DNA of 46,128 nucleotides from a virus: positions 1-46,128 of the IMG/VR virus record IMGVR_UViG_3300044492_000139. One strand, written 5' to 3'. The notes under the pieces are model-generated. The model saw only the letters and a list, made by a program, of their open reading frames with translations, searched no databases and was not told the origin of the DNA. Shown here piece after piece: positions 39,815 through 45,752 of the stretch (the first letter of the stretch is position 1; each line of letters opens with the position of its first letter). A program made the translations under genes and the position numbers.

Positions 39815-40285
39815 TTAGTCCAGATTGCCTGACGCTAATTCAACCCGTCCCAACGTGCCCAGTAAAACCACTTCGCGTTGTCGAGACGTCATCCCTTGAT
39901 ACAAACCAAACCGCCCTTGAAACAACCCACTGGTGACTTCAACCCGCTCGCCAATCTTGAATCTATCCTTTGGCAACGTGATCACACCGTTGCGTTCTTT
40001 CGACTTCATTACATCAACCCACGACATCGGCAGCTGCGACGGTACTTCACCGTTCATCAGTATCTTCGACACGCCAAAAGTTCCCAGCAGCGCGTGCCAC
40101 TGGTCTATGATCCAGACAAACAAATAACGGGGAAATAGAAAACGAATATCTTCGACCTTGCGACCACGTCGTACACGAATGATCTTTTCTTTCGGGGCGT
40201 AACATTGAAATCCTTGCCACTCGAGATGTCGCAGGGCACGACGTTCACATTGAGGGTGAGTGGTGATAACAGCCCAGAAAGCCAA
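39815..40285 (-). CDS. NusG/RfaH-like transcription elongation factor
   Basis: The protein has 156 residues with TTG start at 40285-40283, which has a GGGAGGG Shine-Dalgarno five bases upstream. The NGN domain is at residues about 3-105 (FWAVITTHPQCERRALRHLE, then QGFQCYAPKEKIIRVRRGRK, then LFPRYLFVWI). A KOW-type domain runs about 108-150 (FKIGERVEVTSGLFQGRFGL). NusG family members bind RNA polymerase and suppress pausing; specialised paralogues (RfaH, LoaP) let it read through long operons. It heads about 40 kb of co-directional late genes, suggesting a phage antiterminator. The family match is clear; the role is inference. Confidence 0.88.
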   Translation of the reverse strand: MAFWAVITTHPQCERRALRHLEWQGFQCYAPKEKIIRVRRGRKVEDIRFLFPRYLFVWIIDQWHALLGTFGVSKILMNGEVPSQLPMSWVDVMKSKERNGVITLPKDRFKIGERVEVTSGLFQGRFGLYQGMTSRQREVVLLGTLGRVELASGNLD

Positions 40286-43559: not shown

Positions 43560-44585
43560 ATGTCACGCCTTCGCCAACTGCAAATCGAGTGGAACGCCCT
43601 TATCGCTGACGCACAGGCCCGTGGCCTTAACGTCAACCCGGTTCGCTTGTACCCGGAAGGTCTGCACGAACGTATCACGCACCGCCAGTCTCGTTTGAAC
43701 TGGTTGCGGTCGCAACTCGGCATGACCACGGTACTCACCCAGACGGTCGCAGCCAACGTCGACGGCGTCCTGACCTTTGGTGTCGAGCTGGAATTCATTC
43801 ACCCGCGTCAGTTTCGTTCGGCTGTCGTCACAGCCTTGCAAGCCGCTGGTATCAACATTCTGGAGGAGGGTTACAACCACCGCTTGGCCAACCATTGGAA
43901 AGTCACCACGGACGGTTCGTTGATGAACCGCACGTACGGTTCGGAAATCGTTTCCCCGGTCCTGTCGGGCGACGAAGGCTTCAGCCAACTGACCAAGGTC
44001 TGTGAAGTACTGACCGCCCTCGGTTGCAAAATCAACAAGAAATGCGGCATGCACGTCCACGTTGGCGCTCGCAACGAAAACGTCGACTTCTTCAAGTCGC
44101 TGGTTCGTCTGTACAGCAAGGCCGAGCCCGTCGTCGAGTCGTTCCTGGCGCCGTCGCGTCGTGGTCACGCCAACCCGTTCTGCGGTCCGGTCCGCATCAA
44201 CCAAGCCAAGTTGGATGCGGCGACCACGGTCGAACAGGTTGCCGAGGCGACGTCGCAGAATCACAGTCCCAACCCGCGGGACAGCATTTTGCGGTCCGCC
44301 AACCGCTACCGCAAGTTGAACCTGCAATCGTTCTGGCAGCACGGCACTGTTGAGTTCCGTCAGCACCACGGTACGATTGAGGCGACCAAGGTCTGTAACT
44401 GGGTCCGGTTCTGCCTGCGCATGGTCCTTGCCGCTCGCAAGGGCGTGGTCCTGACCGACGTTACGCTGGAATCACTGTTGTCGGTAGTGGAGGCCACCGA
44501 GTCCGAAAAGACATACTTTAACGGACGCAAGACGTTCTTCGACCGTGCGGCTAACCGCCGCCTCACCGCTAACGCAAGGTTGTAA
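43560..44585 (+). CDS. Amidoligase-family ATP-dependent COOH-NH2 ligase
   Basis: The protein has 341 residues from ATG 43560 and belongs to the amidoligase_2 (glutamine-synthetase-like COOH-NH2 ligase) family. Diagnostic motifs: GVELEF (74-79), TTDGSL (116-121), YGSEIVSP (126-133), CGMHVHVGA (162-170) and GTVEFRQHHGT (262-272), forming the ATP- and metal-binding beta sheet. Such enzymes join a carboxyl to an amine, often glutamate-type side chains or peptides. A gamma-glutamylcyclotransferase-like gene follows three genes later. Its substrate is not predictable here. The Shine-Dalgarno is weak; longer upstream readings lack a better start. Confidence 0.9.
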   Translation: MSRLRQLQIEWNALIADAQARGLNVNPVRLYPEGLHERITHRQSRLNWLRSQLGMTTVLTQTVAANVDGVLTFGVELEFIHPRQFRSAVVTALQAAGINILEEGYNHRLANHWKVTTDGSLMNRTYGSEIVSPVLSGDEGFSQLTKVCEVLTALGCKINKKCGMHVHVGARNENVDFFKSLVRLYSKAEPVVESFLAPSRRGHANPFCGPVRINQAKLDAATTVEQVAEATSQNHSPNPRDSILRSANRYRKLNLQSFWQHGTVEFRQHHGTIEATKVCNWVRFCLRMVLAARKGVVLTDVTLESLLSVVEATESEKTYFNGRKTFFDRAANRRLTANARL

Positions 44586-44589
44586 TAAA

Positions 44590-44814
44590 ATGAAAACCTA
44601 CAATATAAACGGACTGCACGGTTCGGCGGCACAAGTCGTCGCCGAACTTCACAAGACCTCGCGCGCACCGGCACCCGATGACAGGACATGGATGCAGCAG
44701 ACCGCCGACCGGGCGCACCTGATGAACGGGTCAATCATCCGGGCCGACACCGCCGAGCATTTCCTGGATGATTTGGTCGAGGCCAATCTGCTGAACACCG
44801 TAATGGAGAAATGA
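44590..44814 (+). CDS. Small protein next to amidoligase, unknown
   Basis: The protein has 74 residues from ATG 44590, four bases after the amidoligase stop. It begins MKTYNINGLHGSAAQVVAEL and continues TWMQQTADRAHLMNGSIIRA. It ends with LLNTVMEK. Helical, no transmembrane segment. The close coupling suggests a partner or substrate of the amidoligase. No family is recognised. Confidence 0.65.
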   Translation: MKTYNINGLHGSAAQVVAELHKTSRAPAPDDRTWMQQTADRAHLMNGSIIRADTAEHFLDDLVEANLLNTVMEK

Positions 44815-44815
44815 A

Positions 44816-44938
44816 GTGACTCACTGGCGAAAACCCCGCGTCAATCATTGGGTTGGTATTTCAATTTTTGGCTGGCATATCTTTTGGCGTGCTGGTAAGT
44901 TGAATATCACTCGTAACTACCCGCACACGGAATACTGA
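44816..44938 (+). CDS. Short W-rich ORF with GTG start
   Basis: This 40-codon ORF starts at GTG 44816, preceded by GGAGA at a good spacing, and ends at TGA just before the next ATG (TGATATG). The peptide begins VTHWRKPRVNHWVGISIFGW and ends NITRNYPHTEY. It has five Trp and several Arg/Lys/His and is likely a small basic amphipathic or membrane-active peptide. It fills the only gap between the two neighbours exactly. No known family; it may be the modified peptide of the operon, which is speculation. Confidence 0.55.
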   Translation: MTHWRKPRVNHWVGISIFGWHIFWRAGKLNITRNYPHTEY

Positions 44939-44939
44939 T

Positions 44940-45473
44940 ATGCCCCTCGTCTTTGCTTTTGGTTCAAACCTGAACCGCCAACAAATGAAGCGACGTTGCC
45001 CGACTGCCGTCAAGGTTGGTCCGTTGTACTTGCCGAACGGTCGACTGACCTTTCGCAGCGTGGCCGACGTCACCGTTGACCCGGACGGGAAAATTCCTGG
45101 CGGTGTCTGGCGCATCTCCAGCGCCGACGAGGTCGCACTTGACAACTTCGAGGGCGTCGGTCGTGCCTACCGAAAAAAGAATATCAAATTGTCAATCAAA
45201 GGTGGTGCGTCGGAACGTTGTGTGGTTTACCAAATGCTGCACCGTGACGGGGTCGCCCCGCCATCGCAGGAGTACTTCGACCTTATCCTGGAGGGTTACA
45301 AGTTTTTCGGACTCGACACTGCACCGCTTTACGAGGCGCTGTCGGATTCGTGGGCTAACAAAAACATGACCCGCGACATCCGGCGACGTCGTCACAACAA
45401 GAATCATCCGCCATTGGCCTCTCGTGTTGCCGCCGGTCGCTCGAGACCCGCCATCAAATCACAAACCGGCTAG
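44940..45473 (+). CDS. Gamma-glutamylcyclotransferase-like (AIG2/GGCT) protein
   Basis: The protein has 177 residues from ATG 44940. The N-terminal FAFGSNLNRQQMKRRCP (residues 5-21) is the family's YGSNL-type nucleotide or substrate loop. The likely catalytic Glu is E71 in DNFEGVGRAYRK, with GGVWRIS (54-60) before it. GGCT-type enzymes cleave gamma-glutamyl amides to pyroglutamate. The last 35 residues are a basic tail (RDIRRRRHNKNHPP). It sits three genes after an amidoligase, so it could reverse or edit a gamma-glutamyl bond made by it. Domain is clear; substrate unknown. Confidence 0.88.
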   Translation: MPLVFAFGSNLNRQQMKRRCPTAVKVGPLYLPNGRLTFRSVADVTVDPDGKIPGGVWRISSADEVALDNFEGVGRAYRKKNIKLSIKGGASERCVVYQMLHRDGVAPPSQEYFDLILEGYKFFGLDTAPLYEALSDSWANKNMTRDIRRRRHNKNHPPLASRVAAGRSRPAIKSQTG

Positions 45474-45482
45474 GAGACTACA

Positions 45483-45752
45483 ATGCTTGTTCAACTCACA
45501 ATGGTCGTTCGCGCCCGCTTCGAGGAAGTCGAAAATGACGGGGAGGACGATGGTATCACCGTCACCCAGCCGGTGGAGAGGACGACCCCGGTGATGGTCG
45601 AGACCGCCCATGTGCGGTCATTCTACCCGCGCCACAAGCGCCCCGATGGCACCCAGCCGGTTGGCACCCGTCTCACCTTCAGCAACTCGGCCGGCATGCC
45701 GGTGACCGAGACGTTCGAAGAGGTCGCAGCCAAGTTCGGTCGCGCCAACTAA
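45483..45752 (+). CDS. Small protein in the early operon, unknown
   Basis: The protein has 89 residues with a good AGGAG ribosome binding site before ATG 45483. It is beta-rich at the start (MLVQLTMVVRARFEEVENDG), then acidic, with a conserved-looking VETAHVRSFYPRHKRPDGTQ. It ends in a short helix. Family not recognised. It may act with the ligase and cyclotransferase, but only co-location supports that. Confidence 0.65.
   Translation: MLVQLTMVVRARFEEVENDGEDDGITVTQPVERTTPVMVETAHVRSFYPRHKRPDGTQPVGTRLTFSNSAGMPVTETFEEVAAKFGRAN

Follow-up and report, generated by a model that had tools for sequence, protein, structure and literature searches.

The question raised by this locus is what a phage might do with one enzyme predicted to form an amide bond and a second predicted to break one, when both are encoded in tandem with two very small ORFs. 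The locus lies in an IMG/VR virus record of 46,128 bases, the whole of which was analysed and is here called the window; the record is classed as linear and is perhaps a fragment. Tailed-phage genes (portal, terminase, capsid/head, tail sheath and tape-measure) are found on its minus strand, the portal sharing at most 44% identity with its counterparts in Xanthomonas, Stenotrophomonas and Rhizobium phages. A phage-encoded NusG-like transcription antiterminator is specified at 39815–40285. A sequence-only reading had picked out a block of four genes containing an amidoligase and a protein resembling gamma-glutamyl cyclotransferase (GGCT), and this observation is confirmed: both are present with the motifs quoted for them, and the four tandem ORFs (Table 1) are separated by 4, 1 and 1 bases. 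The amidoligase frame is open from 43404, the start at 43560 being favoured by L007, the nearest relative, and by other homologs. Since the pair was found again in most of the sampled relatives, the block represents more than chance.

Table 1. Features of the amidoligase/GGCT block and of the ORF 3' of it, in window coordinates.
Feature	Coordinates	Strand	Basis
Amidoligase (Amidoligase_2, COOH-NH2 ligase), 341 aa, predicted ATP-dependent gamma-glutamyl ligase	43560..44585	+	PF12224 profile match
74-aa amidoligase-associated small protein, ATG start	44590..44814	+	Homologs beside amidoligases
40-aa ORF, GTG start	44816..44938	+	Three homologs sharing a C-terminal motif
Gamma-glutamyl cyclotransferase-like protein (GGCT/AIG2), 177 aa	44940..45473	+	PF06094 profile match
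FlbD-like ORF, 89 aa, 3' of the block	45483..45752	+	Sub-cut-off PF06289 matches of members

Judged from its sequence and its model, the amidoligase is predicted to have a fold of the glutamine-synthetase/YbdK type, and the residues of its putative active site are conserved. Residues 71–289 align with positions 3–245 of the 245 in PF12224 [2.2e-40, 139.5 bits against a curated cut-off of 22, Pfam search], and among the PHROGs it matches phrog_2443 [amidoligase]. The best PDB matches retrieved by Foldseek with its AF2 model (pLDDT 88.5) are YbdK [1r8g/1tt4], glutamine synthetase, gamma-glutamylmethylamide synthetase [9qur] and a bifunctional glutathione synthetase; these matches have E values of 4e-5 to 2e-4, identities of 11–15% and a low TM-score of about 0.4, and a PDB sequence search with the protein gave no match at all. 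The residues invariant in 52 relatives include G74, E76, E78, D118, E129, H165, H167, R200, R249, N254, E265, R267 and H269. The products of YbdK, glutamine synthetase and gamma-glutamylmethylamide synthetase are gamma-glutamyl amides or close relatives of these. The substrate carboxylate of the phage enzyme could be other than glutamate.

The last gene of the block specifies a predicted cyclotransferase which, on alignment, retains the catalytic Glu. It possesses a PF06094 [GGACT] motif [1.2e-9, 39.2 bits against a cut-off of 22.8, Pfam search], and it matches both phrog_2520 [gamma-glutamyl cyclotransferase] and human GGCT [1.3e-5, 2pn7]. The catalytic residue, E71 of the window protein, aligns with a residue which is Q in the 3cry sequence; the Glu is present in 90 of the 91 GGCTs of the sampled loci, and D68 in all 91. 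A second, different GGCT-like gene occurs in the same region of L016, L020, L021, L026, L040, L043, L046 and L053.

The suggestion that the two enzymes form a make-and-break pair held up as a prediction conserved across phages. A GGCT accompanies 59 of the 82 viral amidoligases picked as such (80 loci plus the window and L007), and an amidoligase was found in 69 of the 80 loci picked by GGCT alone; the loci having been ranked by similarity to the window's proteins, both fractions describe that biased neighbourhood and not all phages. The 11 GGCT loci lacking an amidoligase include many short contigs or matches close to a contig end. In a phage collection of 50,697 records just 43 match the window GGCT and 125 the amidoligase (E 1e-5), so that the co-occurrence is far above chance.

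As sequence comparison shows, the 74-aa protein is conserved as a partner of the amidoligase. Neither the window ORF nor the tested relatives gave a significant match in Pfam, PHROGs, NCBIfam or PADLOC. Of 174 amidoligase loci, 107 were found by iterated HMM searches to contain a member of the family, and the claim that the small ORFs belong to the block stands in the case of this one. All 107 copies lie on the strand of the amidoligase and downstream of it. L007 has the amidoligase, a homologous 74-aa ORF and the GGCT in the window's order; the homolog is directly 3' of the amidoligase in Porphyromonas phages and fecal contigs, while the order in a marine lineage is GGCT, amidoligase, small protein. 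That the small protein tracks the amidoligase is indicated by L236, where these two are found together and the GGCT is on the other strand. The final profile, run over about 60,700 ORFs, gave 139 matches below E 1e-3 and, among the matches listed, none between 1e-6 and 1e-2; on that empty range the family appears sharply bounded. By comparison of coordinates, 44 of the 48 copies in 50 whole genomes, which had been picked for holding an amidoligase, have a PF12224 match no more than about 1 kb away. Four solo copies occur in bacterial genomes (L179, L180, L181 and L182); around each of them, to a distance of about 6 kb, there is neither an amidoligase nor a GGCT or GATase.

All counts of the small protein are lower bounds, because there are diverged candidates for membership. 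An 87-aa ORF of Arthrobacter Ottawa, missed by the iterated HMM, aligns with the family by hhalign [7e-5]; gp42 of Bacillus phage 035JT001 [0.02–0.06] and a candidate in L036 match weakly. Phages, prophages that carry terminase genes, and elements possessing a TraA-like gene all harbour the block. In Bacteroides-type conjugative elements (L008, L010, L131, L141, L142 and L151) the TraA-like gene is a few kb at most from the amidoligase and small protein.

Taken on conservation and modelling, the 74-aa protein looks like a folded interaction domain. Its AF2 model, built with 41 family members, has a pLDDT of 90.9 and a pTM of 0.80 and predicts a beta-hairpin and three helices. A PDB fold search with this model gave no match (best E 3.9), and a search of BFVD gave uncharacterised viral proteins [best 7e-4]; Staphylococcus phage 6ec, the source of a weak match, has no match to the amidoligase, GGCT, GATase or small-protein families. 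Kinship with the small proteins of the Escherichia phage 172-1 cassette was considered and rejected, the hhalign probabilities being below 2%. The conserved positions ([YFW]M, Ala, R41, Gly, F58, D61, L62 and Gly) are mainly of core type plus R41, the C-terminus is variable, and in 93 distinct sequences no Lys, Ser or Cys is invariant. These features make the protein unlike a tag or carrier of the Pup or ACP kind. We therefore consider it unlikely that it is the modified substrate or carrier, glutamylated by the amidoligase and stripped by the GGCT. Such a role would suit a small, folded protein whose linkage to the amidoligase is tight and directional; the family, however, lacks any conserved C-terminal residue, tail or Lys/Ser/Cys on which the group might be placed, and it goes undetected beside 42 of 123 non-redundant amidoligases.

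The 40-aa ORF is, from its distribution, lineage-specific. Homologs were found in L017 (9243–9392), L041 (10125–10361) and L020 (12167–12379) [phmmer 8e-13, 3e-11 and 4e-8, respectively], all with the C-terminal motif G[RK]LN[IV][ST]...PHTE, and patterns drawn from the alignment recovered only these three from the viral collection. All three phages possess the amidoligase/GGCT block, with the homolog away from the amidoligase, and we have rejected this ORF as a conserved substrate or part of the block. The proposal that both small ORFs serve as substrates or carriers thus fails for the 40-aa ORF on its distribution and is disfavoured for the 74-aa protein on its features. The 89-aa FlbD-like ORF, from profile searches, recurs near amidoligase/GGCT blocks, which does not imply membership of the module: iterated HMM searches gave 24 matches in the sampled loci, that in L140 being apparently spurious, and its relatives match FlbD [PF06289] below the cut-off [4e-4 and 8e-3]. 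In certain loci without the 74-aa protein (L030, L042, L048, L050, L054, L055 and L077) a small XRE-type HTH ORF is present 3' of the amidoligase or GGCT.

Some of the viral loci are near-duplicates, and at 70% identity they form 65 clusters, in which the amidoligase is accompanied by GGCT and the small protein (23), the small protein (19), GGCT (16), GATase (3), GATase and GGCT (2) or none of these (2). On a tree of the 123 non-redundant amidoligases the corresponding arrangements are amidoligase with small protein (55), with small protein and GGCT in any order (26), with GGCT (21), with a class-II GATase (17, of which 2 also have GGCT) and with none (4). The small protein requires at least 13 changes on the tree, GGCT 14 and GATase 4; an independent-pairs test of co-occurrence found only 5 usable pairs and had no power. 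Reversal is evidently not universal, since the 55 loci with amidoligase and small protein have no remover enzyme within 2.5 kb, nor is the small protein indispensable, since it was not detected in the 21 loci with amidoligase and GGCT. When the neighbours in 60 viral loci were clustered, no family other than amidoligase, GGCT and small protein occurred in more than 11, which argues that these three travel as a unit. In a Bacteroidota clade a class-II GATase occupies the same place, with GATase_4 above its cut-off.

The small protein and GATase are never seen together among the 123 loci (hypergeometric 9e-10); most GATase loci belong to one clade, so this does not represent many independent events, and the exclusivity would be broken if the Arthrobacter Ottawa candidate is a member of the family. 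One might read such a distribution as that of a harmful amidoligase with interchangeable neutralisers, the small protein binding it and GGCT or GATase reversing what it does. Of the 123 amidoligases 119 have one or more of these three partners beside them, the solo chromosomal copies of the small protein could be immunity genes, and modules of this kind are found in prophages and conjugative elements. We nevertheless regard this explanation as improbable. The small protein and GGCT occur together in 26 loci and are consequently not simple substitutes, the exclusivity of small protein and GATase is confounded by the single clade, and the small protein is encoded downstream, unlike most antitoxins. 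Nor was there any PADLOC match, and membership of a known defence system was likewise rejected on that result. Counter-defence or host takeover, which the sequence-only reading had put forward, is one possible role among others.

The reading we prefer, tentatively and with somewhat less than even confidence, is that the block serves phages as a mobile module by which a gamma-glutamyl group would be reversibly attached, and in which the small protein would be a subunit or adaptor of the amidoligase; gene content and structural models are consistent with it. The amidoligase would activate glutamate at its gamma-carboxyl with ATP before coupling it to an amine, and the GGCT would strip off the gamma-glutamyl group, releasing 5-oxoproline. 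In certain other elements the remover is probably instead a class-II glutamine amidotransferase (Ntn type, EgtC-like). The 74-aa protein might bind the amidoligase as a subunit or adaptor, and not as a substrate, and so determine how active it is or what it acts on. The amine acceptor would most likely be a cell-envelope precursor or a small host amine, the envelope precursor being a fair guess.

If the acceptor is of the former kind, the module might modify peptidoglycan or the envelope for superinfection exclusion, unusual amide links being added to and trimmed from cell-wall precursors. Such a role picks out one target within the preferred explanation and does not imply a different chemistry; it is a possibility to be kept in mind, if on the doubtful side. 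A peptidoglycan role has been proposed in print for related amidoligase and GGCT cassettes, and surface exclusion would be of benefit in two of the settings in which the block is found, namely prophages and elements carrying a TraA-like gene. On the other side, the window has no detectable GATase or RimK-type ATP-grasp partner such as accompanies the enzymes in the large cassettes, clustering of the neighbours revealed no envelope or transport gene recurring beside the block, and the published proposal is itself based on genomics. It is rather improbable that the 74-aa protein acts as a targeting adaptor (or acceptor) through which the amidoligase would glutamylate a host or defence protein, with reversal by GGCT, in phages and conjugative elements alike; with a host protein as target, the module would represent a reversible modification system of a kind not described before. 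An auxiliary metabolic role, with the enzymes supplying glutathione or nitrogen metabolism, has been proposed for Phage-ZRK32 with its amidoligase, GATase, glutathione synthase and GGCT, and seems very unlikely here. Apart from its own genes the block has no recurrent neighbour near enough to point to such a pathway, it spans phages of very different hosts, and a net cycle of making and breaking would merely burn ATP.

Reversible gamma-glutamylation, as preferred above, would bear on cassettes which have been annotated in phages for more than a decade and for which we found no tested function in the literature. A small protein which accompanies the amidoligase in phages, prophages and conjugative elements offers a concrete experimental handle, and makes the question of what these widespread phage ligases modify a testable one.

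The enzyme pair itself is already known, whereas the 74-aa family appears to be undescribed. Amidoligase and GGCT have been published together in Arthrobacter cluster AL phages, Terrisporobacter phage TPDSL_ph1, LUZ24-type and PSA-HP1 podoviruses, Clostridium clostridioforme prophages and a Clostridium difficile island. The expectation that the chemistry in phages had not been described is borne out to the extent that the literature searched held no enzymatic test of it, nor experimental support for a peptidoglycan role; the cassettes and the peptidoglycan hypothesis are in print. Several papers, often with reference to Iyer et al. 2009, treat the cassette as a putative peptidoglycan-modification module, a proposal which rests on genomics, and nitrogen metabolism was proposed instead for Phage-ZRK32, in which the four enzymes are found in one phage.

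Like the window, phages phiEco32, LUZ24, tf, UFV-P2 and PSA-HP1 possess the pair, with Amidoligase_2 and GGCT in one early-region cluster. These podoviruses have three further enzymes in the cassette, namely a COOH-NH2 ligase together with a GATase of class II and an enzyme of the ATP-grasp type. The two models tried for the last two, GATase_6 and RimK, gave no match in the window record, with positive controls, and PF14395 for the COOH-NH2 ligase gave none there or in the control genomes; as the record is perhaps a fragment, the missing genes are weak evidence. Terrisporobacter phage TPDSL_ph1 and Bacillus phage 035JT001 have an amidoligase next to or near a GGCT as does the window, but the former has two amidoligases and the latter only a weak small-protein match. 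Arthrobacter Laroyevirus shares the pair, but possesses a GATase and has the reversed order. In Geobacillus phage GR1 amidoligase, GGCT and a member of the 74-aa family are all adjacent, the small gene there following GGCT.

Outside phages, a gamma-glutamyl group is put on and later removed in the BtrJ/BtrG and EgtA/EgtC systems, the remover being a GGCT (BtrG) or a class-II GATase (EgtC). Both pathways are biosynthetic, and the small molecules on which they act are known; BtrJ is an ATP-grasp enzyme and EgtA a glutamate-cysteine ligase, and neither belongs to Amidoligase_2. A gamma-glutamyl product for the phage amidoligases is nonetheless supported by the presence beside them of two unrelated remover folds, each of which has its precedent in one of these pathways.
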